A stretch of 52,779 nt of DNA from a virus: the IMG/VR virus record IMGVR_UViG_3300020020_000039, positions 1 to 52,779 of that record; one strand, given 5' to 3'. Positions within the stretch are counted from its first letter, which is position 1. Each line of letters opens with the position of its first letter. This document shows positions 7 through 52,779 of this stretch, one piece after another. A program made the position numbers and the translations under genes. The notes below the pieces were generated by a model. The model searched no databases. It was given only the letters and a program-made list of their open reading frames with translations, and was not told the DNA's origin.

Positions 7-59
7 AGAGAAGTGGTTTGGACGCCGGAAACGGTGGGAAGCAATTCCCCCACTTCTCT
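7..59 (+). ncRNA. Candidate three-way-junction RNA with two GNRA tetraloops, upstream of tRNA-Trp
   Basis: The 53-nt element folds exactly. Helix P1 is 10 bp (7-16 with 50-59). P2 is CGCCG/CGGTG closed by a GAAA tetraloop (23-27/32-36). P3 is GGAA/TTCC closed by a GCAA tetraloop (37-40/45-48). P2 and P3 abut with no linker, so they can stack. The only single-stranded junction bases are 17-22 and 49. It lies four bases before the tRNA-Trp acceptor stem, so RNase P processing of a polycistronic tRNA transcript would release it. It has no T tract (not a terminator), is too short for a tRNA, and lacks hammerhead core sequences. I do not recognise the class. The same element is present at 52654-52706. 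Confidence 0.5.
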
Positions 60-132
60 AATTACGGGGCAGCTTATGGAAGCGGCAGGTCTCCAAAACC
101 TTGTATGGAAAGAGTTCGATTCTCTTGTCCCG
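7..132. repeat. Terminal direct repeat, left copy (126 bp)
   Basis: These 126 bases are identical to 52654-52779 at the right end. This is what an assembler leaves when a circular or terminally redundant phage genome is written as a linear contig. It implies a unit length of 52,647 bp. The repeat carries the three-way-junction RNA element and nearly all of tRNA-Trp. Bases 1-6 lie outside it and do not match the bases preceding the right copy. A true direct terminal repeat at virion ends remains possible; read depth over the repeat would separate the two. Confidence 0.95.
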
Positions 133-28085: not shown

Positions 28086-29255
28086 ATGGACATTAAAGAG
28101 GCGGTCAAGCTCATCGAAAAAAAGATTGATGTAGCTGACCAGAAAACGCAGGAGGCGGTTAGCACCGTTCAGAAAGCGTTCGAGGATGGGAAGAAAGAAT
28201 TCGATGGTAAGGTGGAAGCACTTAACACTACGCTTGCTGGCAAGGATGCCACTATCAAGCAGATTCAGGACGAAGTAGTTGAACTGAAAGCAAAAGCCGG
28301 AAGGATTCAGGCAGACAAAGCAAAGACACCGATAAGCCTTTTTGCTCAGTTGCATGAACTCATCGGAGAAAAGAAAGAGATGTTTGAAGCTCTTGAAATG
28401 GGTGGTTCTATGCCGCACTTAAAGATTAAAACCGTTGGTTCTATTCTTGGTGCAAACATGGCAACCGATACTTTTCAATCTTATGTGGACAACCGCACAG
28501 GAATGGAGCCTACAGGCCAAATCCGTTTCCGTGACCTGGCAGGTGTTATTAACTCGGCTACTGATAACGTTCAGTTTCCAAGAGCTAACACTCCTATCGG
28601 TGAAGGTTCGTTCAACCGTCAGACTGATGGCGCAAGCAAACAGCAGATTGATCGTGATTACACAATGGTGAACCTGACCTTAAAGCCAATGGCTGGTTAC
28701 GCAGTTGTTTCCCGTCAGGCTTTGAGAAATATCGTGTTCCTGCAAAGCTGGTTACCTACTTCTATGCTTGAGCAATTGCTTGATGCAGAAGATAGCGACT
28801 TTGCAAACACTCTTGTTGCGGGCGCTACTGGTTCAACTACCACAAGTGGTTCGCCAAACTTTGCCGAGAAGTTGATTTATTATATCAAGAACCTTATTGC
28901 TTCGAAGTACAATCCGAGCGGCCTTGCTGTAGATCCTACAGTATGGGCACAGCTTCTGATTCTTCGCCCCGGTACGGATAATCCTTACAGCGCTCCCGGT
29001 GTTATCGGTGTTGACGCTTCTGGTAATATCCGCATCGTTGGCCGCCCTGTATATCCCGTTAACTGGTTAACCGGTGGACGTGTGATTGTAGGTGATTGGA
29101 CAAAAGCGAAGATTGTACAGAGCGAAGGTTTGACAATGCGTCAAACAGATAGCCACTCTACTACTTTCATCACGAACGAAACAACGTTCTTGCTTGAGAG
29201 AACAGAAGGTTTGGCAATCTTCCGTCCTGATGCGTTTATTACTGCTATCCCATAA
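28086..29255 (+). CDS. Major capsid protein (HK97 fold)
   Basis: 389 aa. The N-terminal ~105 residues are a charged coiled coil (delta/scaffold domain, EAVKLIEKKIDVADQKTQEA). From about 120 the HK97-fold core reads RFRDLAGVINSATDNVQFPR, KPMAGYAVVSRQALRNI, ILRPGTDNPYSAPGV and DWTKAKIVQSEGLTMRQTDS. Protease cleavage at the end of the delta domain is expected. A strong terminator directly follows, which would set a high capsid-specific transcript level. Confidence 0.92.
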   Translation: MDIKEAVKLIEKKIDVADQKTQEAVSTVQKAFEDGKKEFDGKVEALNTTLAGKDATIKQIQDEVVELKAKAGRIQADKAKTPISLFAQLHELIGEKKEMFEALEMGGSMPHLKIKTVGSILGANMATDTFQSYVDNRTGMEPTGQIRFRDLAGVINSATDNVQFPRANTPIGEGSFNRQTDGASKQQIDRDYTMVNLTLKPMAGYAVVSRQALRNIVFLQSWLPTSMLEQLLDAEDSDFANTLVAGATGSTTTSGSPNFAEKLIYYIKNLIASKYNPSGLAVDPTVWAQLLILRPGTDNPYSAPGVIGVDASGNIRIVGRPVYPVNWLTGGRVIVGDWTKAKIVQSEGLTMRQTDSHSTTFITNETTFLLERTEGLAIFRPDAFITAIP

Positions 29256-29348: not shown

Positions 29349-29975
29349 ATGGATAGCGCCTTTAAATATTTTGATAAGATTTATTGTATCAATCTCGACC
29401 ATAGAACAGACAGATGGAACGAAAGTATAAGAGAGTTCTATAAAGAAGGGATTGAAGTAGAAAGATTCCCCGCCGTGAGCGGTGAGAATAGAACTATTGC
29501 GTTTAATACATCGCAGTTAGAGGTACTAAAAAAGAGTTTAGCCGATGGTGCTAACAATCCACTGATACTAGAGGACGATGTAGAGATAAGGGGATCAATG
29601 CACCTGCATTACGCAATGAATGAACTGCCTTCAGATTGGGATATTATATACCTCGGAGGGAATATAATAGGTATAGATGTTATTCCATTCAGAAAGCCGG
29701 TAAGACATTCAGCGCATTTATTTAAAGTTCTTGATTGTTGGCAAACACAGAGTGTAGGGTATAGCAGGAAGATGGTGGAGTGGTTAGTGGAGAACTTTAA
29801 GGTGGATTGCGGATGGATCTATGATGAATTCTTGAGACAGGAAGTATTGCACAGGTTTAATTGTTTTATCGTAGCTCCGCAAGTTACACTACAGAGAAAA
29901 AGTTATAGTGATATATGGAGTGTAGAAGCAAATTTCACTCACTTGTTTGATGCAGGGAATGAATTATTAAAATAA
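29349..29975 (+). CDS. Family 25-like glycosyltransferase
   Basis: 208 aa. FDKIYCINLDHRTDRWNES at the N-terminus and LILEDDVEIRG (DxD-type metal site) with WDIIYLGGNI are the pattern of GT25 lipooligosaccharide or hydroxylysine galactosyltransferases. Soluble and complete. First gene of a block of glycan enzymes placed between capsid and head-tail connector genes. It could transfer a sugar onto a virion protein or host surface glycan; acceptor unknown. Confidence 0.85.
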   Translation: MDSAFKYFDKIYCINLDHRTDRWNESIREFYKEGIEVERFPAVSGENRTIAFNTSQLEVLKKSLADGANNPLILEDDVEIRGSMHLHYAMNELPSDWDIIYLGGNIIGIDVIPFRKPVRHSAHLFKVLDCWQTQSVGYSRKMVEWLVENFKVDCGWIYDEFLRQEVLHRFNCFIVAPQVTLQRKSYSDIWSVEANFTHLFDAGNELLK

Positions 29976-29987
29976 AAACCAAAGACC

Positions 29988-30263
29988 ATGTTACCAGTTA
30001 GTTTTCCAGAACAAAACAAAGTTTACCTAAAGCCAGAAGGCTGGACGGACGAACAGTGTTCTGATTTGCCAGTATGGCAAGGGGCTGCTCCTATTGATGA
30101 AGCAGGCAACACAGCGCCTGTTATTATTTCTTGCTGGCAATTCTCTAAAGAGGATTTAGATGAGATACAAAAGACAGGGCGTGTTTGGTTATCGGTTACA
30201 GGATCATCGCAGCCGCCTGTATCATTATTTACAGAGAATCCTTTTATACCATCAGAAGTATGA
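29988..30263 (+). CDS. Hypothetical protein in glycan island (91 aa)
   Basis: Acidic protein with WTDEQCSDLPVWQG and VIISCWQFSKEDLDEIQKTG. Resembles short phage proteins often found beside capsid genes, without known function. Its stop overlaps the next start (ATGA). Confidence 0.65.
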   Translation: MLPVSFPEQNKVYLKPEGWTDEQCSDLPVWQGAAPIDEAGNTAPVIISCWQFSKEDLDEIQKTGRVWLSVTGSSQPPVSLFTENPFIPSEV

Positions 30264-30970
30264 CCCACCTAGTAACATACTCAGACGAGAATATGACTAT
30301 TGCAATGGAGAAGTGTAAGGTTAGCGGGCTAAAGAATGGAGTTGATCAAACACATTCATATAGTCCTGGTTCTGTATCACGTGAGTTTAGGACTAATAAT
30401 AAAGAGGTGTTAGATTCCGCTCGTGGTTCTGGTTATTGGTTGTGGAAGCCGTATGTTATTAATGATATAATGAAGCACTGTAATGACGGCGACATTCTCA
30501 TTTACTCAGATGCCGGTGTCGAATTCATCGCCCCCGTACAAGAGATAATCAACCGAATGGATGAGGATATTTTCTTTTTCACTAACGGGTTTCCTCAGAT
30601 AGAATGGTGCAAGGGTGATATAATGAGAGCAATCAACGGCTGGCATCAATACGAATCGTTCAGGGATAAAAAACAGGTGCAGGCATCAGTAATATTCTTT
30701 AAGGTCAATCAGAAAACAAGGGACTTCGTTAAGGAGTGGCTCTTGTGGTGTCAGATGCCAGGATTTATAGATGATAGTCCGAGTAAAGTAGAGAATTGTA
30801 AAACGTTTGCTGAGGCGAGGCACGATCAAAGCATTTTATGTGCATTACAAATAAAGTATGGGTACAAGGTTCATTGGTGGCCTACTCAATACTCAGAACA
30901 TATAAGAATACCGGGGGATAATTACCCTGTTATTTTCAACCATCACAGGAAAAGGAATAACGAATGGTAA
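30260..30970 (+). CDS. Glycosyltransferase-like protein (236 aa)
   Basis: The start at 30260 overlaps the preceding stop; an upstream extension runs over that gene and is rejected. GSGYWLWKPYVI, DILIYSDAGVEF (acidic metal site) and ARHDQSIL resemble the nucleotide-sugar and acceptor regions of GT-A enzymes acting on capsule or O-antigen sugars. QASVIFFK and WWPTQYSEH complete the fold pattern. Family number not assigned. Confidence 0.68.
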   Translation: MTHLVTYSDENMTIAMEKCKVSGLKNGVDQTHSYSPGSVSREFRTNNKEVLDSARGSGYWLWKPYVINDIMKHCNDGDILIYSDAGVEFIAPVQEIINRMDEDIFFFTNGFPQIEWCKGDIMRAINGWHQYESFRDKKQVQASVIFFKVNQKTRDFVKEWLLWCQMPGFIDDSPSKVENCKTFAEARHDQSILCALQIKYGYKVHWWPTQYSEHIRIPGDNYPVIFNHHRKRNNEW

Positions 30971-31512
30971 CCCTCGATCAAAATAATCTAAAGACGTGGC
31001 AAGAGAATAATCTTGAGGGCAAGAGGTATGAATACGACCTGAAGCCTACCGATCATGTGTTAGACATTGGTAGTTATAGAATGGAATTCGCTGATGAGGT
31101 TATTAAGAAATACGGGTGCACAGTAGAATGTTTTGACGCACTGGATAATAAAGCAGCATGGTTATTTGATGGACAATTGTCCTTTGGTGGTCAGTATTAT
31201 TACTCTAGCGCATTTGAGAAAGATACACCACAAGCGATTTACCGCTGTGTTGATATCGCTCCTTACATAGATAAAGAGATTGCTCTTTGCAAGATAAATA
31301 TCGAAGGGGCTGAATATGAACTACTCGATTACATCATTGGTAAAGAGCTAATAAAGCATATAAATAACATTCAGGTACAGTTTCATTATGTAGATGGGCT
31401 TGATTGTGAAAAGATGTATGAAGAATTAGCAACTAAATTAAGTAAAACTCATTCGTTAACGTGGAGAACTGCGTTCGTGTGGGAAAACTGGAAGAGAAAT
31501 GATAGTAATTAA
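30964..31512 (+). CDS. FkbM-type methyltransferase
   Basis: 182 aa. DHVLDIGSYRMEFADEVIKK is the SAM-binding motif, with VECFDA and KINIEGAEYELLDYIIG as later FkbM signatures. These enzymes O-methylate sugars and similar small molecules. Within the island it could cap or modify glycans made by neighbouring transferases. Overlaps both neighbours, so same transcript. Confidence 0.82.
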   Translation: MVTLDQNNLKTWQENNLEGKRYEYDLKPTDHVLDIGSYRMEFADEVIKKYGCTVECFDALDNKAAWLFDGQLSFGGQYYYSSAFEKDTPQAIYRCVDIAPYIDKEIALCKINIEGAEYELLDYIIGKELIKHINNIQVQFHYVDGLDCEKMYEELATKLSKTHSLTWRTAFVWENWKRNDSN

Positions 31513-31762
31513 AGAAAAGAATAAGGGGCTATTCAAGTTAAGCACTTGCGTAACCAAAAACCCGTCAATCATGGCGGCTTTCTTTGAACACTTTACTCCA
31601 CTAAAGTTTGATTTAGATGTGCATACAGGCATTTATTATATGCTTTGCGAGAGTGAATTATTTAGCGAAGTACCAGATAATAGCCCTATTCCTTTTTACG
31701 ATTGCGAGGTTAGAACTGAACCGGGTGGGAAAATAATAGTAACAGACATAAATAAGTATTGA
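31499..31762 (+). CDS. Hypothetical protein in glycan island (87 aa)
   Basis: KGLFKLSTCVTKNPSIMAAF and a central FDLDVHTGIYYMLCESELF. No family recognised. Couples the two methyltransferase genes by overlap. Confidence 0.6.
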   Translation: MIVIKEKNKGLFKLSTCVTKNPSIMAAFFEHFTPLKFDLDVHTGIYYMLCESELFSEVPDNSPIPFYDCEVRTEPGGKIIVTDINKY

Positions 31763-32331
31763 TGCTTGAGTTTGTAAAGAAATACGGGTGTAATATCTAT
31801 AGCCAGAATAATGAGGACGGTCTTATTGATCAAATCTTGTCACGGTTAGATATTACACGAGGAACAGCGGTTGAATTCGGCGGCGCTGATGGTTTTTTCT
31901 GTAGTAACACAGCGGCATTAAGAGACAAAGGTTGGGCTGTTCATATGTATGATTTACAAGCCTGTGAGCCGTATGTAAAGAAGAAAGCAATAACTCCAGC
32001 CAATATAAATGAACTGCCAGTATGCGACTTATTAAGCATTGATACGGACAGCGGGAATGATTACGAGTGTTTCAAAGAGATAAAACAGAAGCCCGCAATA
32101 GTTATCATAGAAATAAACAGTTCAATTCCTCCTCATCAGCTTCATGTTAGTGATGATCAGGGGGCAAGTTATAAGTCAATGGTGGAGCTAGGCCTAAGTA
32201 AAGGGTATTTTCTTTTGGCTCATACTGGAAATTTAGTTTTTGTACTCAATGAATATAAAAGTTTATTCCCTGAAATAACAGGAGATCCATTATACAATCA
32301 CGAATTATATTTTAACAGGTCATGGCTATAA
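31762..32331 (+). CDS. Second FkbM-like methyltransferase
   Basis: 189 aa from the ATG at 31762. NNEDGLIDQILSRLDI, TAVEFGGADGFFCSNTAALR and VCDLLSIDTDSGNDYECFKE, then AIVIIEINSSIPP, follow the FkbM/SAM-methyltransferase order. Glycine-rich motif I is the variant EFGGADG. Probably modifies a sugar or a peptide-linked glycan; overlaps the fucosyltransferase gene by 10 bp. Confidence 0.75.
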   Translation: MLEFVKKYGCNIYSQNNEDGLIDQILSRLDITRGTAVEFGGADGFFCSNTAALRDKGWAVHMYDLQACEPYVKKKAITPANINELPVCDLLSIDTDSGNDYECFKEIKQKPAIVIIEINSSIPPHQLHVSDDQGASYKSMVELGLSKGYFLLAHTGNLVFVLNEYKSLFPEITGDPLYNHELYFNRSWL

Positions 32332-33080
32332 CGTTCGGTATGCTCGGTAGGTACGGAAGATTCGCAAACGGTCTTTACCAAATAGCTAGTACTATCGGTA
32401 TCGCTATCCGTTCCGGTCAATCATTCGGTTTCCCTGAGTGGAAGAACTACGATCATTTGGAAAGATTTGGCAGTAGTGAAGATATTGACGTTCAGAAATA
32501 CTTTGTTAATCCTTTACCTAGCGTTGATCGCTCTTTGAGTTATGAGTCTAGGTTCGTCCATTGGGGTTATCACGATACCTTTTTACCTGTTGGCAATTGG
32601 GATATAACAGGACACTTGCAAAGCCCTAAATACTTTAATCATTGCATGGATGCTGTAAGGCATTATATGACTATGAAAGACGAGTACCCTTTGAATAACT
32701 ACTGTGCCATCCATTGGAGAGCCGGTGATTATTTAGAAGGTGGGGATAATGTTTACCACCCTCGTCAAACGATGGAGTATTACAACAAAGCAATGTCTCA
32801 CATGCCATCAGGAACAAAGTATTTGGTATTTAGTGATGATCTCGATAAGGCAAGAGAAATGTTTGGCGATGTTGAGTATTACAACGCTGATTATATAGAT
32901 AGTTTTAAGAAAATGAAATCGTGCAAGTATTTTATTATATCAAACAGTTCTTACAGCGCAATGGCAGCGACTTTAGCTGATCAGCCTGGAAAGATTGTTG
33001 TTGCGCCTAAGATGTGGTTTGGTCGTGTAGCTGGCATTACCGGCGATGCGATTTATCAAGACGATTGGATGGTGATTTAA
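32322..33080 (+). CDS. Alpha-1,2-fucosyltransferase-like (GT11)
   Basis: 252 aa. HWRAGDY (131-137) is the HxRxGDY GDP-fucose site; GHLQSPKYF (97-105) and CKYFIISNSSYSAMAATLAD match further GT11 motifs. Glycine-rich N-terminal LGRYGRFANGLYQ fits. Adds fucose or a related deoxysugar to an oligosaccharide. Rare in phage genomes, and unusual within a head operon. Confidence 0.85.
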   Translation: MAITFGMLGRYGRFANGLYQIASTIGIAIRSGQSFGFPEWKNYDHLERFGSSEDIDVQKYFVNPLPSVDRSLSYESRFVHWGYHDTFLPVGNWDITGHLQSPKYFNHCMDAVRHYMTMKDEYPLNNYCAIHWRAGDYLEGGDNVYHPRQTMEYYNKAMSHMPSGTKYLVFSDDLDKAREMFGDVEYYNADYIDSFKKMKSCKYFIISNSSYSAMAATLADQPGKIVVAPKMWFGRVAGITGDAIYQDDWMVI

Positions 33081-33100
33081 AGAAAAGTGAGGAGTGAAAT

Positions 33101-34069
33101 ATGGGGTTACGTATATTATATTCGATCCACCTCTACCCGCCAAAACACAATTGCGGAGGAGAGTGGATGATTCACCACATGAATAAGTTTCTTATCAGCC
33201 GTGGTCATCATGTTAGAGTTATACTTCATCAGGCAGGGATGCACGGTGTTAAAACCCCGTACAACTTCGAAGGTGTTGAGGTCTTCGAACCATCAGCATC
33301 TACCTACGCATACGATTGGGCTAATGTCCTGATCACTCACCTCGACTATTCACAGTGGACTATTCAAATGGGGCAGATATTAAGAAAGCCTGTTGTTAAT
33401 ATCATTCACAATGATACTCCTTACAACTGCGTCATGAATGCGCAGAGGGACAATTATGTAGTCTATAACAGTAAATGGCTAAAAGATAAACTTAATTATA
33501 AATGGCCGTCAATAGTACTGCGTCCTCCGTGCGACCGTGACTATTATGATCTATCCGAAGAGCCTATAAAAAATACTTACATAACACTCATAAATCTATC
33601 AGAGAATAAAGGTGGAGAACAGTTCTATGAAATAGCTAAGCGCCTTCCTGGGAAAAAGTTTCTTGGCGTAATGGGCAGTTATGATCCTCAGATTGAAAAG
33701 GATTTGCCGAACGTCAGGATTATTCCCAACACCGTTGATATCCGTCCTGTTTACCGGCAAACGAGAATACTGTTAATGCCTTCAGAGTACGAATCATGGG
33801 GAAGGACAGCAACAGAGGCGATGTGTAGTGGTATTCCGGTGATCGCTAGCCCTACACCGGGGTTAAAAGAGAACTGTGGAGCAGCTGGAATATTTCATGA
33901 CAGAAATGATATTGATAAATGGGTGAAAGAGATAAAAAGATTGGATGATTCACGGTATTACCATCAGGTTAGTAACAGGTGCAGGGAAAGAAGTGAGGAA
34001 CTAGATCCTAAAAATGATTTAAATGAGTTTGAGAAATTCTTATATCACGCAGCGCAGTCAGCCTACTAA
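33101..34069 (+). CDS. GT4-type glycosyltransferase
   Basis: 322 aa. GT-B fold with N-terminal HLYPPKHNCGGEWMIHHM, a central nucleotide-binding strand, and the retaining-GT E-x7-E motif E231 to E239 (EYESWGRTATEAM), followed by SGIPVIAS and PGLKENCGAAG. Uses an NDP-sugar donor. The last gene of the island; its 3' end overlaps the connector gene by 47 bp, so it is locked into the structural operon. Confidence 0.88.
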   Translation: MGLRILYSIHLYPPKHNCGGEWMIHHMNKFLISRGHHVRVILHQAGMHGVKTPYNFEGVEVFEPSASTYAYDWANVLITHLDYSQWTIQMGQILRKPVVNIIHNDTPYNCVMNAQRDNYVVYNSKWLKDKLNYKWPSIVLRPPCDRDYYDLSEEPIKNTYITLINLSENKGGEQFYEIAKRLPGKKFLGVMGSYDPQIEKDLPNVRIIPNTVDIRPVYRQTRILLMPSEYESWGRTATEAMCSGIPVIASPTPGLKENCGAAGIFHDRNDIDKWVKEIKRLDDSRYYHQVSNRCRERSEELDPKNDLNEFEKFLYHAAQSAY

Positions 34070-34586
34070 TGGCGTGCTGGATTATACGTTCTCAGGGACA
34101 GAGGCGGAGCTAATCACTTTAACAGAAGTGAAAACGCACCTCTTTGAAACCAGTACAGATAATGATACAGAGCTAACTGCGCTGTTAACGCAGTGTCGCA
34201 AGGCGCTGGAGAGTTTCACATCATTAACTCTTTGTTCGGGTCGTACAGTTACTGCATTGCTGAAAAACGAGAAGGGTAATATTGAAATTCCTTTTGCTCC
34301 TGTACTTACTATCACAACTATGCACGATATAGAAGGTACTGAAATTACTTCTACTGATTACACTATTCGTGGGCTAACATTTAAGTGGATCGAAGCTCCA
34401 TGTACCAGTTATTTGAAACTTGTTTACACCGTTGGTTACACAGTTATACCGGCAGAGTTAAAACTAGCAATCCTAAACGAGATCGCTTACCGTTTCGCTC
34501 ATAAGGGTGACGAAAACTTAGGCGTTCAGATATGTGAAGCGTCAAGATCGCTAGCTGAACCATTCAGGAGGTACGCATGGCGGTAA
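34023..34586 (+). CDS. Head-tail connector (gp6-like)
   Basis: 187 aa. LITLTEVKTHLFETSTDNDT, LTALLTQCRKALESFTSLTL and LAILNEIAYRFAHKGDE are the helical pattern of Phage_connect_1 (HK97 gp6/SPP1 gp15). The connector ring binds the portal. The first ~15 residues overlap the glycosyltransferase end; a later start would lie within the domain. Confidence 0.85.
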   Translation: MSLRNSYITQRSQPTNGVLDYTFSGTEAELITLTEVKTHLFETSTDNDTELTALLTQCRKALESFTSLTLCSGRTVTALLKNEKGNIEIPFAPVLTITTMHDIEGTEITSTDYTIRGLTFKWIEAPCTSYLKLVYTVGYTVIPAELKLAILNEIAYRFAHKGDENLGVQICEASRSLAEPFRRYAWR

Positions 34587-35323: not shown

Positions 35324-35757
35324 GAGATCCTAACAAGATATTTCGGGATGCGGTTAAGAGTTCTTTGGATGGTGTTTTATTCTTTGAATTATCGCAGGTT
35401 CAAGTGTATGATGAGAAAGCGGAAGAGGGTAATAACATGACTTACGTGATACTAAGCACCCAAACATCAGCACAGGAACCAAATTTCAGTGGTTTCGGGC
35501 ATCAGTGTTCTTTATTACTTGATATCGTCTGCAAACAATACGATATGATGAATAAAGAAGCGGTAGACGATGTAAGCAACCAGATATTAACAATATTATT
35601 CCCGAGTGTTACTACAAACGGGTTAACAATACAATCAGGGTTTCAAATAAACTGCTTGACAGTAGAGAGTGTAAACTATGTGCCTCTAAGGTTAGCAAAT
35701 GCAAAAAGTATAATAAGAAAATTAATTCGATTAACAGCTAAAATATCTCAATCATGA
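35320..35757 (+). CDS. Tail terminator / completion protein
   Basis: 145 aa. Fits the DUF3168/gp17-like layout by position and by the pattern VYVLSTQ-like strand (TYVILSTQTSAQEPNFSGFG), VCKQYDMMNKEAVDDVSNQI. Caps the tail tube and stops polymerisation. Overlaps both neighbours by 4 bp. Confidence 0.75.
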   Translation: MRDPNKIFRDAVKSSLDGVLFFELSQVQVYDEKAEEGNNMTYVILSTQTSAQEPNFSGFGHQCSLLLDIVCKQYDMMNKEAVDDVSNQILTILFPSVTTNGLTIQSGFQINCLTVESVNYVPLRLANAKSIIRKLIRLTAKISQS

Positions 35758-36182
35758 CAACAATTTCGTCGACGTTAGTGCCTCTGGAGTTATCTTTTGA
35801 CAGTGCGGTAAGCTGGCAGGCGTTGGTATGTTTACAACAGTACAATGTTCCTACCGAAAGACAGGCAACGCAAGAAGATACTTTCTGTGGTATTGCTACG
35901 GCTCTCGGCGCTCAAACATTTAACCCATCTGGAACAGCGATCTGTGAAGTAAACCCAACAGCGGGCAGCCAGGTTACTTACAATAGGCTTTTAACAGCGC
36001 AAACTAACGGCGAGACATTTAAATTCCGTGTTAGATACCCGTCAAGCGGTTCTACTGGTCAAAGTTTTTACCTGAGCGGAGATTGTAAATGTAGTTCACT
36101 CGATTTACAGATGGACGCTACTACTTACATCAAATTCGCATTCACATTAACAGGAGAGGGAACACTTGATATAACCAACTAA
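35754..36182 (+). CDS. Major tail tube protein
   Basis: 142 aa. Beta-sandwich pattern with VPTERQATQEDTFCGIATAL and DGETFKF-type strands (GETFKFRVRYPSS), ending FTLTGEGTLDI, as in siphovirus tube subunits. Sits between the terminator and the chaperone genes, the standard place. A second tube-like protein is encoded at 40487. Confidence 0.78.
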   Translation: MTTISSTLVPLELSFDSAVSWQALVCLQQYNVPTERQATQEDTFCGIATALGAQTFNPSGTAICEVNPTAGSQVTYNRLLTAQTNGETFKFRVRYPSSGSTGQSFYLSGDCKCSSLDLQMDATTYIKFAFTLTGEGTLDITN

Positions 36183-40486: not shown

Positions 40487-40924
40487 ATGGCTAGTGTTGT
40501 AAAAGGCAAGGATTGTTATTTCAAGATAAATATTACAGGTGGGCTAAAGCTAGTCCTATGTAGTAAGTCTTTTACACTGTCTACAGTAACCGAGGAAGTG
40601 GAAGTAACAACAATATCAGACGGAAGCGACCCGGAGGAAGGATTCTGGAGAGACTTTGATTATCATTCTTTGGGTTATACGATAACACTGGAAGGGATTT
40701 TAAAGAATACGGATAGTACAGATGATACAGCATGGGAATTAAATACTGCGCAAAGAATGTTTTACGAGGTTCCGTTTACAATGTATTTCGTTGATGCGGA
40801 GAGTAACGCTAAAACAATTGAGGGGACAGCTATAGTAAAGAGTTCAACATTCGGCGCAACATCGAACGCTTTTGTAAGTACGAGTATTGAATTTATTGGT
40901 AAAGGAAAATATACGATAACATGA
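40487..40924 (+). CDS. Second tail-tube-like protein
   Basis: 145 aa. VVKGKDCYFKINITGGLKLV, CSKSFTLSTVTEEVEVTTIS and GYTITLEGILKNTD match the TP901-1-type tube fold, yet this gene lies between the hub and the spikes instead of before the chaperones. It may form a tail-tip ring, decorate the tube or link the spike. Its stop overlaps the spike gene by 4 bp. Confidence 0.65.
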   Translation: MASVVKGKDCYFKINITGGLKLVLCSKSFTLSTVTEEVEVTTISDGSDPEEGFWRDFDYHSLGYTITLEGILKNTDSTDDTAWELNTAQRMFYEVPFTMYFVDAESNAKTIEGTAIVKSSTFGATSNAFVSTSIEFIGKGKYTIT

Positions 40925-43548
40925 GGAAGATTGCATTTGTGGGGCTATTGGTTATAATGGGTATGGGTGTAAAAGCGCAACTTGGTGCTCAATCTCTGGA
41001 CAGTGTTAGAAACTATAACACGAGGTACACGACAAACAGCGCAATTACGTGGTTCTCTAACCTGAGAGGGCAGACGTTACTAAGGGGGATTATTGATCAC
41101 ATTGATTCCACTACACAGAATACCGTGGTTAATTTCTACAAAGACGGTGATTCGATAAGATTAGTATTTGCTTCAGGTGATACGTTGAGTGTGCTTGGCG
41201 GCAGCGGTGGTGGGTCTTCGCTTACCAACGCATCTACAACGGGAGATACATTAATCGTCGGCTCCTCAATAAAAAGATTAGGAGTTGGTACGAGTGGAAC
41301 AGATTTAGCGCTTGCAACAACGTCATCAAAGATTACTATTAATATTCCGAACGCTTCTTTAGCGGCAACAAGAGGATTAGTCGTAAACACAGACTGGCAG
41401 AGCATTCCGGGATCTGTGAACTTAATGAGGTACGGAGCCGACAATACAGGCTCAACTTCTATTCATACTCAGATCAACGCAGCGATAGCAGCGGGGTATA
41501 AAACTATTTATTTACCAGAGGGGCAATTCTTAATTACTACTCAGATTAATTGGGCAGATAGTGTTTCGCTGGTAGGAGCGGGAAGGGGTAAGACTTATAT
41601 AAAAATGACCTCGAATATCACCGCAATTAAATTATCGTATGCGCTCGGAGGCAATAAGGCACAATTCAGAGATTTTACTATCCGTGGAACGAACGGAAGC
41701 GGTGGTTCTACTTCTCAAAAAGGAATCGTTATAGATAGTGCTTATGGTTGTATTATAGATAATGTCGGCGGTTATTTTATGGCCGGTGCAGTGTTTTCCA
41801 TAGCAGGTAACGGATCAATCGCCAGCGGTAATAAATACACTTTTGGAAATCTTATTACTAACTGTTATACAGAAACGTGCTACATAGGTCTATTCCTTGA
41901 CGTTCGGGCAGAATATAACAGGGTTACAAATAACACCTTCGTTGATGGCACTTACGGAATACAACGTAAAGGAGGCAATAACCAGATTATAGGGAACAAC
42001 TTATCATCTAACTCTATTGGGTATTTAAGCGAAGGCGGTTCCAATAATGCGCATGGTATTAATGCGAACAATACAATGAATCACTGCGGAACATGGGGCT
42101 ATCACGCTACAGGAATTACACTAGGCGAGGACATGGAAGGGAATCAGATATGGTCAAGCCAGGTCAGAATTGAAAACAGTGTTAATATTAATATGCGTGG
42201 TGGCACTATTGAATCAGATAGTATAATAATAACCGGTTCTAGTTTCAATATGGCTTACACCCGACTATCGGGAGGCGTCGCATCAGAAACAGGCTGGAGA
42301 TATTCAACGTCTACCGGGAACATAGCATGGTTTAGCGCCGATGGAATGAGATATAAAAATCTTGCATCAACCTCGAATAAAGGCGGAACAGTTAACGCAT
42401 ATTTAAACGGAGTTGTTGCTTATGGTGGCGATTTGGTAAGCGGAACAATGGCAGGGGTGGCAGAGCACAGATTTTATCAGCCAATAACAGGAGCAAACGG
42501 AACTTTTGATGCTTCGAGAGATTTAAACATAAAGTCTATGCGTCAAGATGGGGATGCTACCGGCCCGGTTGATGCTGCACAATTTTACAGAACAGGAACA
42601 ACGGGAAGTACATTAGCAATACTTGATAATGCAGCAAATTATTCATTCAGAGTTTTACCAGTTGGAAGGATTGGAGTGGGTGGTGTTTCTGTTCCTACTG
42701 CTCAAATGCACTTTGCAGCAAGTACTACGTCGGCAAGTACAGCCCCAATAAAATTTTCTACTGGTACTTTAATGACAACTGCGGAAGCGGGAGCGTTTGA
42801 ATACGATGGATCTCATTTTTATTTATCTCCTTCGACTACACGTAAAAAGATTCCATTATTTACCAGTGCAACAGCAGCAACGGGTTCTATATTATACGGT
42901 AACGGAACTGATTTTAGTTTACTTGCTGCGGGGTCAGATGGGCATGTTTTAACTCTTGCAAGTGGTGTTCCTTCATGGGCTGCACCTACGGGAGGTAATG
43001 CTATTGCAACCAACGGAAACAGTACGTTAACAGCTAACAGTACTTTATCCAATTCAACTTTCAACTTCACTATAAGCAATAGCTCTACAGGACGATTCAA
43101 ACTTAACGGAATAAAATCCGACGATCCTGTTCGTGGTCTTGGTATGGCTGCCGATAGTTCGGTTGTTGGTTACACAATTCAGACAAGAGAAGAAGTAGAA
43201 ATAAATACTTCAGGAAATACACCTACTACGGTCTTCACATTAACTCCCGATGTCGGAGTTGAGGAAATCATTACAATAGTAATCACTTTCAACGCTAAGA
43301 AACAAAGCGCCACCGGAGGTTATGTAGCTATTAAAAAAATGTCCTTCCAGTGGGATGGTATTACAACATTAACAAATGGAACTCTTGCTGATATGGTAGC
43401 AGAGCAGTTCTTCTCAGGACTCAGCACCTGCGATATTACAATAACAAATTCAGGGGATGATATAATTGTTCAATTCACCGGGGAAAGCGCAACGGATATA
43501 CACGGAACGTTATACGTTGACATTACCCGCACAAGCATAGGACTATGA
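40921..43548 (+). CDS. Tail spike with pectate-lyase-like beta helix and signal peptide
   Basis: 875 aa. Residues 1-20 form a Sec-type signal (MRKIAFVGLLVIMGMGVKAQ). From ~165 NLMRYGADNTGSTSIHTQIN and KTIYLPEGQFLITTQINW open a Pectate_lyase_3 right-handed beta helix with regular GGSN/NNT turns, up to ~470. The C-terminal ~250 residues have fibre-type repeats (FSTGTLMTTAEAGAFEYDGS) and a beta domain. Probably binds or cleaves surface polysaccharide. A signal peptide on a structural gene is odd. Confidence 0.75.
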   Translation: MRKIAFVGLLVIMGMGVKAQLGAQSLDSVRNYNTRYTTNSAITWFSNLRGQTLLRGIIDHIDSTTQNTVVNFYKDGDSIRLVFASGDTLSVLGGSGGGSSLTNASTTGDTLIVGSSIKRLGVGTSGTDLALATTSSKITINIPNASLAATRGLVVNTDWQSIPGSVNLMRYGADNTGSTSIHTQINAAIAAGYKTIYLPEGQFLITTQINWADSVSLVGAGRGKTYIKMTSNITAIKLSYALGGNKAQFRDFTIRGTNGSGGSTSQKGIVIDSAYGCIIDNVGGYFMAGAVFSIAGNGSIASGNKYTFGNLITNCYTETCYIGLFLDVRAEYNRVTNNTFVDGTYGIQRKGGNNQIIGNNLSSNSIGYLSEGGSNNAHGINANNTMNHCGTWGYHATGITLGEDMEGNQIWSSQVRIENSVNINMRGGTIESDSIIITGSSFNMAYTRLSGGVASETGWRYSTSTGNIAWFSADGMRYKNLASTSNKGGTVNAYLNGVVAYGGDLVSGTMAGVAEHRFYQPITGANGTFDASRDLNIKSMRQDGDATGPVDAAQFYRTGTTGSTLAILDNAANYSFRVLPVGRIGVGGVSVPTAQMHFAASTTSASTAPIKFSTGTLMTTAEAGAFEYDGSHFYLSPSTTRKKIPLFTSATAATGSILYGNGTDFSLLAAGSDGHVLTLASGVPSWAAPTGGNAIATNGNSTLTANSTLSNSTFNFTISNSSTGRFKLNGIKSDDPVRGLGMAADSSVVGYTIQTREEVEINTSGNTPTTVFTLTPDVGVEEIITIVITFNAKKQSATGGYVAIKKMSFQWDGITTLTNGTLADMVAEQFFSGLSTCDITITNSGDDIIVQFTGESATDIHGTLYVDITRTSIGL

Positions 43549-44624
43549 GATATTTAACGTTAATATTTTTACTGATTTCTTTTTGTGCGGGAGCGCAAAC
43601 GACTACACATATTTATGATACTGTTGGTGGTTCTGTAACACGTTCAAAACTTGTTATAAAATCATTGTCTGAAATGCCGGATTCGGTATGGACAAAGTTC
43701 GGAAGCGTGTCGGTTAAAGTTCCCAAGTCCTCATTTGCTCCGCAAACTTGGGGGAGTATTACAGGTAAACCTTCATTTGCTACTGTAGCTACTTCAGGTT
43801 CATACGCTGACTTATCTAATAAACCAACGATTACAACTAATACAAACCAGTTAACAAATGGGTCTGGATTTTTAGTTGCTGCGGATATTGCGGGCAAGCA
43901 AAACACTCTGGTAAGTGCCACTAACATTAAAACAGTTAACGGTAGCTCATTATTAGGTAGTGGAGATATATCAATAAGCGGAACAGCGGCATGGGGAAGC
44001 GTGACAGGAACTTTAAGCAATCAATCGGACTTACAAACCGTATTAAACGGTAAGATAGGCGACAATACAGATATGCTTGCTTATACGGCTCTCGGTTCTC
44101 CTTTCCTCGCTCAAACAGTAGGCGCACCAGTACAAACAGCTAATACCTCAACCGCATTGGTTGACGGCCAAATAAAATTTACAGCAGTTTATTTACCGAA
44201 AGCAACAACGATTACAGGAATACGTGTGTACGTGCGTGTATTAGGGGCTTATACAGGCGATAATAATAATAGAGTTGGATTGTATTCATATAGTGCTGGA
44301 GTGTTGACGCTGGTAGCAAGCAGTGCAAATAATGCAACGCAATGGACGGGAGCGGCCAACGCATTTCAAACAATAGCATTTAGTTCTCCTTATGCGGCAG
44401 CAGCGGGAATTTATTATGTGGGCGTCCTTTATAATCAATCGGCGCAAACAACCGCCCCTGCTTTAGCTTCTGGAGTAGCTCTTAACAACGTCGCAATGGC
44501 AACACTAGGGTTTTCTAATTCAGCGAAATTATACGGAACAGCAAACGGTGCAGATTTAACTACACCAATAAATATGAGTGCTATCACTGCGTCGGTAATT
44601 CCAACGTGGATAGCTCTTTATTAA
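43545..44624 (+). CDS. Tail fibre-like protein with signal peptide (359 aa)
   Basis: Signal MRYLTLIFLLISFCAGAQ, then a region with the fibre repeat GSYADLSNKPTITTNTNQLT and KTVNGSSLLGSGDISISG, typical of phage and prophage fibres. The C-terminal third is a beta domain (YLPKATTITGIRVYVRVLGA) that could recognise a receptor. Overlaps the spike gene by 4 bp. Confidence 0.7.
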   Translation: MRYLTLIFLLISFCAGAQTTTHIYDTVGGSVTRSKLVIKSLSEMPDSVWTKFGSVSVKVPKSSFAPQTWGSITGKPSFATVATSGSYADLSNKPTITTNTNQLTNGSGFLVAADIAGKQNTLVSATNIKTVNGSSLLGSGDISISGTAAWGSVTGTLSNQSDLQTVLNGKIGDNTDMLAYTALGSPFLAQTVGAPVQTANTSTALVDGQIKFTAVYLPKATTITGIRVYVRVLGAYTGDNNNRVGLYSYSAGVLTLVASSANNATQWTGAANAFQTIAFSSPYAAAAGIYYVGVLYNQSAQTTAPALASGVALNNVAMATLGFSNSAKLYGTANGADLTTPINMSAITASVIPTWIALY

Positions 44625-44633
44625 TAATAAAAA

Positions 44634-47600
44634 ATGAGGTTAGCAGCATTATTGGTTTTGGCTCTGATTGGTTCATTTGGTTATGGGCAGAATCCGAATT
44701 TCGTTCCTGGAGTTCAGAAACTGTACACTATTGCCGGAAGATCCTGTTTAGTATGGACTCCTGACACAACTCTCCCTAAAAAATTCGTGCTCGGCTTACA
44801 CGCTACCGGCAACAGTTGTAATGATAGTGCAGCGGCAGTGAATCAGGGATGGGCTAAAAGAGTACGGGTTACCACAACCGGTTTGCATCGTGACAGTATG
44901 ATGCACATTACTTTTATTAGGACAGTTGGAGAAAATGCAGGGGTAAGCGACCTTCTTAATATTGACAGGGTTTTAGATACTGTTTATAAATACTGCGATT
45001 GGATTGATACGTCAGCTACAACAAATAGAAACTTCTTTAGCGGTCTTTCACAGGGCGCTCAGGAAATGTACAGGTATTTAAGCAACTGGAGCGGAACAGG
45101 CGGAGAGCATAGAACGAGATTTAAAACGCAAGTGGTAATGTCTGGCGGCGCTTTTAATGATCCAGATTTTGTAGGTTTTAGAGTTCGTTATACTCATGTC
45201 AGTTTTAATACGCTTGATGCGGTTGTAGGTTCTTATTATAACGATCATCTGTATGACTTGTTTTATGACACTTACGGTTATGTAAACCCACTTACAAGAA
45301 AAATAGAATTAGCGGGGACTGATCACGGTTCAGCGGCATGGGATAGCACAACAAGTCAGGCGGGAGCAGATGCTAATAGTAACGTAACGATGTGGATATT
45401 ATCTCCGTCTTACAATCTTTCAAATTACCCACCGGTAGCCGATGCAGGAGTAACGCAAACACTAGCTATTGCAGCAACGACAGCAACACTCAATGGATCT
45501 GCAAGCTACGATCCGGATGCCTTAATAACTACCTACGCATGGACGCAAATAAGCGGGGCGGCTAGTACGATCACATCAGCATCTTCTGCAAGTACCGGAA
45601 TAACAGGATTAGCGCCGGGAATTTATAGATACAGATTGGTGGTTACCGATGATGATGGCGCAACAGATGATGATACAGTGAGTGTAGTTGTCGCAAATCC
45701 ACGTTACCGAATAACTGTTCCCGCGGCCAATGTATTCAGAAACGGAGGGCGTGACGGAGTAATACCCTATACGAATTGGTTAGATGGCGATACTACTAAC
45801 AATACATGCCCACTAACATTTGGAACATCCGGAATTGATCTGCCTAACACTGGTATTATAATGCTGGATAGCACTTATACCAACTTCGCCTTTGCTTTAA
45901 AGAATCTTGGCGGCGGCGGAAGTACGGTAATAAATTTTTGGTTGTATAATGACGACCGTGATGATAGTTTGGCGGTATCAGTAAGTACAGCAATTGATTC
46001 ATGGAACTATGTAGATAGCAACAGATCGAAAGGCGTTCACTTCCCGGTAAGGTGGATTGAGTGGACTACTACAACATGCTTTTCTTATATAAGCGAAATG
46101 CGGATATACGGCACTGCGGTAGCGGAAGGTCAACAGATATTCCCAAGCTCCGTATCTATGCCAGTTGGCTCATTCACTGACTTCTTAGGTACTGCCTCGG
46201 GCGGTACTGATCCGGACAGTTTATATACCGCTATCGGGAAATCCAGAATATTCGCAGGGCATTGGTATTTCGATAGCTCAGCAACTTTCAATTCAGCAGC
46301 AAGAAATATAATTTTTAACTTCTTTGGAGGTGATAATACAAACGCAGTTGTAGCAGCTTACCGGGCAAGAGGTGTTAAGTTAAGCTATGCAACTTTCGGA
46401 GCTATAAGAGCCTTTCAAGATCCCGTACCCAGTAGCCCATTATCATACGGATCATTTAATGACAATAAAAAGAATATGGCTATCGGAGCAGATAGTACAG
46501 ACCCGGCAGCGTGGATAGCTTCAGCCCAAAACGGTTATTTTATTTCAGGATGGGGGGGGCGTAACACTTCAGTAAGTTGGGGTCCACATACCGTAAAAAC
46601 AGGAGGTGGCGTGAACGTTACAAAAGGCAACGATTGGTTATACGGAATAGAAGAAGGAAACGAATCCAATGCAAGCTGGTCTACTGAGCGGTATCAAAAC
46701 AGCCGGGTACGGATGGCCAAGCAATCGGCTTTCTACGATGGACACATGGGCGCTCTTGGAAGTTACGCAGGTGTAAAAACAGCCGATAGCACGATGCTTG
46801 CGGGAGTTGGCGCACTGGTTGGATTTGACAGTGTAACCATGAAAACAGATGCCCTGTTTGATTACCGTATTCGGGGATTGGATAATCAAGCGTGGGATTA
46901 CTATTCTATAAATCAATACTTCACTTATACAGGTGAGCAATCATTCAGTGTGCCATCTCCAAACGGGATCTCACCGGGTCAATTTCGGTGGTTCACAAGG
47001 GCTAGTTCAATAGTTAGCATACGCAACAGATACATGCCCGGTAAGAGAATTCACATAACGGAGTTTGGATGGGATAAAAACGGGTCAACTTCTTACAGCG
47101 CACTTGCTCACGGTTCGCTAGATAGCGAATACGTACACGCAAACTACATACACCTTGCTTTTCATATTGGTAGAGCGGTTGGTATTGATGAAATGGATCA
47201 GTATAAAAGTATTGATGATGGAGTACTGGCAAACCAGGGAGATTTTGTTACATCAGGAAATTCTAGTGGTTACCCTGATTACACAAGATGGGCGGCTAAC
47301 TTTTGGATGAGTACAATGAAAAGTGTTTTTGCAGGCTACGATTCTCAATTGCCAACAATACTTCAGAACGGAGATAGTACTGATCTGTACATTTTCAAAT
47401 ATCAAACAAGCGGAAATGATACTATAGTTTTTGTATTACAATCCGGAACGCATGATGATAGTGAGTTTGATTATGATTTAAGCGTTGGTGAAACTTCTTT
47501 TTGTGAAGTTATAAACATGGCTAAAGGAGATTTAGACGGAGTGCGAACAACGGGGACACCAACGGCGGGAGTGCTTCATCTTGATGACGTAGGCGAAACT

Positions 47601-47681
47601 CCTGTTTATGTCAGAATAGTTTTACAAAGTTCATCAGCAACAAGACGAACAATATACACTAATACAATAATAAGACAGTAA
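44634..47681 (+). CDS. Esterase-PKD-glycosidase fusion with signal peptide (1015 aa)
   Basis: Signal MRLAALLVLALIGSFGYGQ. Residues ~25-265 form an alpha/beta-hydrolase: GLSQGAQEM gives the GxSxG nucleophile, GTDHGSAAW a likely catalytic His. Residues ~270-355 are a PKD-type beta domain (PVADAGVTQTLAIAATTATL, LVVTDDDGATDDDTVSV). From ~540 a TIM-barrel-like domain has acid YGIEEGNES and nucleophile-like HITEFGWDKN, the pattern of clan A glycosidases. A two-activity enzyme for acylated surface polysaccharide is inferred. The end is beta rich. Confidence 0.7.
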   Translation: MRLAALLVLALIGSFGYGQNPNFVPGVQKLYTIAGRSCLVWTPDTTLPKKFVLGLHATGNSCNDSAAAVNQGWAKRVRVTTTGLHRDSMMHITFIRTVGENAGVSDLLNIDRVLDTVYKYCDWIDTSATTNRNFFSGLSQGAQEMYRYLSNWSGTGGEHRTRFKTQVVMSGGAFNDPDFVGFRVRYTHVSFNTLDAVVGSYYNDHLYDLFYDTYGYVNPLTRKIELAGTDHGSAAWDSTTSQAGADANSNVTMWILSPSYNLSNYPPVADAGVTQTLAIAATTATLNGSASYDPDALITTYAWTQISGAASTITSASSASTGITGLAPGIYRYRLVVTDDDGATDDDTVSVVVANPRYRITVPAANVFRNGGRDGVIPYTNWLDGDTTNNTCPLTFGTSGIDLPNTGIIMLDSTYTNFAFALKNLGGGGSTVINFWLYNDDRDDSLAVSVSTAIDSWNYVDSNRSKGVHFPVRWIEWTTTTCFSYISEMRIYGTAVAEGQQIFPSSVSMPVGSFTDFLGTASGGTDPDSLYTAIGKSRIFAGHWYFDSSATFNSAARNIIFNFFGGDNTNAVVAAYRARGVKLSYATFGAIRAFQDPVPSSPLSYGSFNDNKKNMAIGADSTDPAAWIASAQNGYFISGWGGRNTSVSWGPHTVKTGGGVNVTKGNDWLYGIEEGNESNASWSTERYQNSRVRMAKQSAFYDGHMGALGSYAGVKTADSTMLAGVGALVGFDSVTMKTDALFDYRIRGLDNQAWDYYSINQYFTYTGEQSFSVPSPNGISPGQFRWFTRASSIVSIRNRYMPGKRIHITEFGWDKNGSTSYSALAHGSLDSEYVHANYIHLAFHIGRAVGIDEMDQYKSIDDGVLANQGDFVTSGNSSGYPDYTRWAANFWMSTMKSVFAGYDSQLPTILQNGDSTDLYIFKYQTSGNDTIVFVLQSGTHDDSEFDYDLSVGETSFCEVINMAKGDLDGVRTTGTPTAGVLHLDDVGETPVYVRIVLQSSSATRRTIYTNTIIRQ

Positions 47682-52653: not shown

Positions 52654-52779
52654 AGAGAAGTGGTTTGGACGCCGGAAACGGTGGGAAGCAATTCCCCCAC
52701 TTCTCTAATTACGGGGCAGCTTATGGAAGCGGCAGGTCTCCAAAACCTTGTATGGAAAGAGTTCGATTCTCTTGTCCCG
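52654..52779. repeat. Terminal direct repeat, right copy (126 bp)
   Basis: Exact copy of bases 7-132. Here the repeat is preceded by continuous phage sequence (terminator, spacer, then the left arm of the junction RNA), so this copy shows the natural upstream context of the tRNA cluster. It ends two bases short of the tRNA-Trp 3' end, which continues at base 133 of the left copy. Confidence 0.95.

Follow-up and report, generated by a model that had tools for sequence, protein, structure and literature searches.

Bacterial viruses with sugar-coated heads have rarely been seen, and most demonstrations of glycosylated virions among phages come from mycobacteriophages. Among these, Che8 and Rita are known to have glycosylated virions (Freeman et al., 2023, as cited in PMC11256854 and PMC12619734), and PMC12619734 reports glycans on the tail tube protein as well as on the capsid protein. 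According to a 2024 paper, phages are not typically glycosylated (PMC11256854). Outside the bacterial viruses, the chlorovirus PBCV-1 encodes glycosyltransferases and O-methyltransferases that complete the glycan on its capsid (A064R, A061L; PMC9614988). Here we describe a locus, in a phage of Bacteroidota-type bacteria, encoding enzymes of both kinds, which is probably a virion (head) glycosylation cassette that is co-expressed with the head genes.

The window, by which we mean the entire stretch of viral DNA that was analysed (52,779 bases), ends in 126 bases that exactly repeat positions 7-132. The repeat has the appearance of an overlap left by the assembly of a circular genome that is near-complete. 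An integrase is encoded, and the late module runs in the order terminase, portal, MuF, protease, capsid, island, connector and tail. Within the island are four glycosyltransferases (GT25, an orphan GT-A, GT11 and GT4), two FkbM-like methyltransferases and two small ORFs (Table 1). The initial annotation had placed the island, its gene order and its capsid and connector flanks correctly (PF05065 and PF05135 matches). It had also described the genes after the first as mostly coupled by overlaps, which agrees with the junctions from capsid to connector (+93, +12, -4, -7, -14, -1, -10, +20 and -47 bases, in that order). The last of these, an overlap between the GT4 and connector genes on which that annotation had relied, holds if the connector starts at ATG 34023 and would be abolished by a start at GTG 34074. 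For FkbM-like 2, ATG 31762 (TGATG coupling) is more likely to be the start than TTG 31759. A promoter scan gave matches at chance level.

Table 1. Genes of the island and its two flanking head genes, with positions in the window
Feature	Position	Strand	Basis
Major capsid protein, HK97 type, proposed acceptor	28086..29255	+	PF05065 E=1.4e-20; directly 5' of cassette in relatives
GT25-type glycosyltransferase, invariant EDD	29349..29975	+	PF01755 E=1.2e-5; alignment of 14 relatives
Small ORF, 91 aa, unknown function	29988..30263	+	phrog_25433 E=1.4e-11 (unknown function)
Orphan GT-A-fold glycosyltransferase	30260..30970	+	Model (pLDDT 88) matches GT-A enzymes; ATG 30260 overlaps preceding stop by 4 bases
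FkbM-like methyltransferase 1, optional in relatives	30964..31512	+	PF05050 E=0.0021, sub-threshold; motif kept in 11 relatives
Small ORF, 87 aa, unknown function, not conserved	31499..31762	+	No family match (Pfam, PHROG)
FkbM-like methyltransferase 2, optional in relatives	31762..32331	+	PF05050 in 5/9 family members; model resembles SAM methyltransferases
GT11-type (fucosyltransferase family) glycosyltransferase	32322..33080	+	PF01531 E=1.3e-10; phrog_2644 E=7e-38; H-x-R-x-G-D-Y
GT4-type glycosyltransferase, core cassette enzyme	33101..34069	+	PF13692 E=1.5e-14; phrog_26352 E=2e-76; present in minimal cassettes too
Head-tail connector	34023..34586	+	PF05135 E=1.9e-4; phrog_442 E=1.3e-16

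Three of the glycosyltransferase assignments made in the initial annotation exceed their Pfam cut-offs. GT25 scores 25.7 bits (cut-off 24) in a match that covers only the N-terminal part of the protein, whereas GT11 reaches 41.5 bits (cut-off 23.9) and GT4 reaches 54.9 bits (cut-off 27). The motifs singled out at that stage also prove to be family-conserved in alignments of relatives: LEDDVE of GT25 contains the invariant EDD, HWRAGDY is the conserved GT11 motif, the E-x7-E of GT4 is formed by E231 and E239, which are both invariant, and KINIEGAEYE of FkbM-like 1 follows the pattern K-x-N-x-EG-x-EY that is kept across its relatives. The two FkbM calls are less direct, since both are sub-threshold on the window proteins themselves; the first is supported by its motif, and the second by its relatives and its fold. 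FkbM-like 1 scores 18.6 bits against PF05050 (cut-off 22.7). FkbM-like 2 on its own yields only a Methyltransf_23 match (E=0.08) and none to PF05050, and a single-sequence scan with it found no relatives. Its family members were gathered from cassette neighbourhoods, and those that match PF05050 do so with a best E of 4.7e-6.

The GT-A protein matches no Pfam or PHROG family, and its nine aligned relatives are likewise without a Pfam match. Because profile searches of GT-A and FkbM-like 2 against PDB sequences gave chance matches only, their folds were used, in the manner of the structure searches that had been suggested for the island enzymes. The AlphaFold model of GT-A matches LARGE1, GT6 enzymes and the PBCV-1 capsid glycosyltransferase 2p6w (E 1e-6 to 1e-5), a likeness at the level of the fold (10-15% identity) that bears out the GT-A label, and the model of FkbM-like 2 matches SAM methyltransferases. 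A blood-group-like glycan, considered from the GT6 likeness, was dropped, as that likeness is fold-level only (10-13% identity, TM about 0.6).

A survey of whether related phages keep the island at this locus, also proposed in the initial annotation, finds the full set in about 100 distinct contigs, nearly always in the same order. A GT4 scan of viral contigs returned 136 relatives. In the 80 of these that were fetched, GT4 sits between the capsid and the connector or next tail genes wherever both sides are seen, and in most of them capsid and GT4 are separated by a single gene, which encodes GT25, a SAM methyltransferase or an FkbM-type protein. Their GT4 is 50-57% identical to that of the window, while their capsid is only about 31-43% identical. 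Similarly, a GT-A family scan returned 293 relatives, the best 80 of which carry the whole cassette as far as their contigs extend. The order GT25-GTA-GT11-GT4 is found in all 38 of the GT-A loci with both flanks read; their methyltransferase part varies, with none recognised in 14, FkbM-like 2 in eight, both FkbM-like genes in nine, other types in six and a mixed set in one.

Once loci with identical genes are collapsed, 100 distinct GT11 loci (at least 38% identity) remain, along with 63 distinct GT4 loci that have neither GT-A nor GT11. The minimal form, GT4 with a single partner, occupies the same slot in about 60 further contigs. Head or packaging genes are recognised in 93 of the 100 GT11 loci and were seen in two more (L086 and L091); three of the other five have tail-completion genes (L124, L143 and L157), and the last two, contigs of about 4 kb, contain nothing but the cassette. 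Head or connector genes adjoin the cassette wherever enough sequence exists. One locus, L193, was not scored against this pattern, as it has a capsid fragment oriented opposite to the head genes of the same locus and is likely to be an assembly chimera. Queries taken from the cassette itself led to most of the loci, and thus co-occurrence is partly due to the choice of query. A capsid-seeded scan was itself partly seeded with loci found through GT-A, and its independent contribution is six new loci with downstream sequence, all six of which contain the cassette.

Optional genes come and go within this framework. Homing-endonuclease-like genes are inserted among the enzymes in some relatives, large extra proteins lie within or beside the cassette in a few (L090, L093 and L149), and weak homologues of the 91-aa ORF occur inside the cassette in both L149 and L185, and close to the portal gene in L187. 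Gain and loss of this kind would be expected if the island were cargo without shared function, built up as successive, unrelated morons entered a permissive slot. This explanation is barely credible given that gene order is kept across divergent contigs, that island GC (0.36-0.42) is close to that of the genome (0.40), and that dN/dS is about 0.08. The Nei-Gojobori medians are 0.073 for GT4, 0.080 for GT25, 0.089 for GT-A, 0.095 for GT11 and 0.08-0.09 for the methyltransferases (few pairs), compared with 0.085 for the capsid gene and, by the same method, 0.243 for the tape measure gene. Purifying selection on the enzymes is as strict as on the capsid.

The set is found on at least four head-gene backbones. 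Type B (8-9 contigs) has the order portal, MuF, then GT25-GTA-(MT)-FkbM2-GT11, then protease, capsid and GT4, whereas type C has the order capsid-GTA-GT11-GT25-GT4, and L088 and L091 have yet other arrangements. Alignment of type B proteins with those of the window covers only part of the portal (22% identity) and part of the capsid (26% identity), and for the terminases there is no significant match. In a GT11 tree, several deep forks of which are open, sequences from backbone B are interleaved with those from A such that at least two label changes are required, and the distant GT11 sequences from other phages cluster apart (100/99 support). As judged from these sequences, the cassette appears to have moved between head lineages, each time landing beside head genes. 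The best supported reading of the island is that it glycosylates and methylates the virion at the time of head assembly, because about 100 distinct contigs retain its linkage to head genes, which also persists across backbones whose portals and capsids are hardly alike.

The initial annotation had offered this same reading together with a second, in which the enzymes act on the host surface. Their targets would then be LPS, capsule or surface glycoproteins, changed late in infection or in lysogeny with superinfection exclusion or serotype conversion as the outcome, and the head operon would supply only the timing. GT25, GT11 and GT4 families work in LPS and O-antigen synthesis as well, and the phage has an integrase. 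Serotype-conversion genes, however, are usually located outside the head operon, and here the head-gene linkage persists when the cassette changes backbone. Moreover, GtrA (PF04138) is absent from the window genome by a search that matched seven control genomes, and no membrane segment is present in any island protein; the flippase and membrane glucosyltransferase of GtrABC serotype conversion were thus found neither in the genome (the flippase) nor among the island proteins (the glucosyltransferase). GT11 relatives of less than 38% identity in other phages do lie among nucleotide-sugar and other glycosyltransferase genes; none of 20 matched the head queries of this study, but screening with these queries only is not a fair test of absence. 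On balance, remodelling of the host surface is unlikely, and this part of the initial annotation is left without support.

A third target could be the phage DNA, with the transferases glycosylating modified bases as a defence against restriction. Phage glycosyltransferases are known to act on DNA (Pyle et al., 2024, as cited in PMC12619734). For this island such a role is highly improbable, as the genes are grouped with head genes rather than replication genes, and the near-complete genome lacks a thymidylate-synthase-type enzyme (PF00303) by a search that matched nine control genomes. A Tet/JBP search matched no control and carries no weight for or against DNA modification.

Returning to glycosylation of the virion, the timing with the capsid genes, the absence of membrane segments and a search of the window genome that found no nucleotide-sugar genes together point to cytosolic modification of a head protein with host donors. 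In the mechanism that we infer, soluble cytosolic transferases would draw on the nucleotide sugars of the host, with GDP-fucose as the probable donor for GT11 and other nucleotide sugars for GT25, GT-A and GT4. A GDP-mannose-dehydratase-like gene directly after GT11 in L086 (assigned from sequence, with no family search) fits a GDP-fucose donor. Their product would be a short oligosaccharide attached to a head protein (the major capsid protein is the most likely one), either ahead of assembly or while it proceeds. We propose GT4 as the core enzyme, acting closest to the protein, because minimal cassettes retain it and because, in type B, it follows the capsid gene even though the rest of the set is elsewhere. 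GT25, GT-A and GT11 would extend the glycan, and the FkbM and other SAM methyltransferases would serve as exchangeable caps that add O-methyl groups. A fucosylated, O-methyl-capped oligosaccharide made from host donors is the best reading of the product, and its benefit might be capsid shielding, particle stability or adhesion.

Alternatively, the acceptor might be another virion protein, such as the tail tube, a decoration protein or a fibre, with the location among head genes being incidental. The tail tube glycans of mycobacteriophages, which accompany those on the capsid (PMC12619734), offer a precedent, and the large extra proteins of L090, L093 and L149 could be candidates. Regardless, such proteins are present in few relatives only, the main backbone places the cassette next to capsid and connector, and GT4 remains right behind the capsid gene in backbone B, which makes a different acceptor quite unlikely.

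If the major capsid protein is the acceptor, then capsid glycosylation would be common in this phage group, given about 100 distinct environmental contigs with the full cassette and about 60 more with GT4 plus one partner. The cassette would be a genomic marker of capsid glycosylation and a source of fucosyl- and methyltransferases with possible activity on native capsids, and the role of a sugar coat for the phage could be put to the test in phages that are easy to recognise. The case is evenly balanced for a wider proposal, namely a mobile 'glyco-capsid' cassette with a GT4 core, a GT25/GT-A/GT11 extension and exchangeable methyl caps, which was transferred among phage lineages whose portals and capsids are dissimilar, builds a fucosylated, O-methylated capsid glycan, and makes glycosylated heads normal in a large group of environmental Bacteroidota-type phages. 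Cassette contigs occur in two metagenome-assembled genomes, a Taibaiella (Chitinophagaceae) and a member of the Saprospiraceae, which may be true hosts or may be bins into which phage contigs were misplaced. GT4 homologues of 38-39% identity are found in Nonomuraea, Streptomyces and one actinomycete metagenome-assembled genome, with an SPP1-type portal nearby in the Nonomuraea locus and the actinomycete contig.

Among isolated phages, the nearest by capsid are Cellulophaga phage phi10:1 and Flavobacterium phage 11b, which share the portal-MuF-protease-capsid-connector backbone with the window. Their capsid-connector slot holds small ORFs only, with no annotated glycosyltransferase. The earlier impression that the enzymes are unusual in this position is therefore apt in comparison with isolated phages, whereas within its own lineage the set is standard. 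Gp20 of Streptomyces phage TurkishDelight is a GT4 homologue (32% identity; two domains matched by the GT4 profile, E=1.8e-143) that also lies between capsid and tail genes. Unlike the window enzyme, it is a 678-aa tandem fusion without such GT25, GT-A, GT11 or FkbM neighbours.

Similarly, Che8 carries adjacent phage-encoded glycosyltransferase genes (three, versus four in one block of the window), and its gp110 weakly matches the window GT25 profile (E=0.0012, Z=1000). Che8 proteins have no match to the GT-A, FkbM, GT11 or GT4 profiles, and its glycosyltransferase genes are at the right end of the genome rather than beside the capsid gene. PBCV-1 resembles the window in combining virus-coded glycosyltransferases with methyltransferases, and its structures 2p6w and 2p72 are among the GT-A model matches, although it is a virus of eukaryotes, the structure of its N-glycans is known, and the glycosyltransferase likeness is at fold level (12% identity). 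By analogy, the window system would work like known virus glycosylation, and its membership in the mycobacteriophage type of virion glycosylation is putative. A search of the open literature found no description of this cassette, and a conserved, mobile, head-linked arrangement of these enzymes in Bacteroidota-type phages looks to be a new addition to the known systems.

An exact direct repeat of 126 bp lies at both ends of the window (7-132 and 52654-52779) and coincides with a tRNA-like sequence; the genome is probably circular, and the repeat would then be an overlap left by its assembly. The same phage encodes two tail-tube-type proteins, assigned to families PF18906 (weak match) and PF06199, with the second gene located downstream of the tail genes. 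Three large, consecutive late genes have N-termini that resemble signal peptides (e.g. MRKIAFVGLLVIMGMGVKAQ), and such starts look odd for tail or fibre proteins.

Among cassette relatives, which are loci given by L numbers, homing-endonuclease-like genes interrupt the enzyme series in several cases. Three relatives carry two extra, repeat-rich proteins of 147 aa and 400-700 aa, possibly decoration proteins or acceptors. Three others share related copies of a 177-aa gene that resembles part of an NAD-dependent sugar epimerase, for which no Pfam match was found.

Coordinates of features in the window and in cassette relatives
Feature	Location	Description
Homing-endonuclease-like insert	L086:6092-6895	GIY-YIG/HNH-looking, among cassette enzymes
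Homing-endonuclease-like insert	L105:9911-10729	GIY-YIG/HNH-looking, among cassette enzymes
Homing-endonuclease-like insert	L167:4017-5171	GIY-YIG/HNH-looking, among cassette enzymes
Extra protein pair	L090:8257-10827	in or adjoining cassette
Extra protein pair	L093:13351-17085	in or adjoining cassette
Extra protein pair	L149:11020-13265	in or adjoining cassette
Epimerase-like gene	L181:10565-11095	in cassette
Epimerase-like gene	L202:1544-2065	in cassette
Epimerase-like gene	L232:6367-6879	in cassette
Tail-tube-type gene 1	window 35754-36182	
Tail-tube-type gene 2	window 40487-40924	
Large late gene 1	window 40921-43548	pectate-lyase-like domain, putative signal peptide
Large late gene 2	window 43545-44624	putative signal peptide
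Large late gene 3	window 44634-47681	PKD domains, putative signal peptide

The more distant phage GT11s (loci L238-L258, below 38% identity) neighbour other glycosyltransferase and dehydratase-like genes, with no head genes recognised around them by the head-gene queries of this study, and these neighbourhoods are a glycan island of a different kind.
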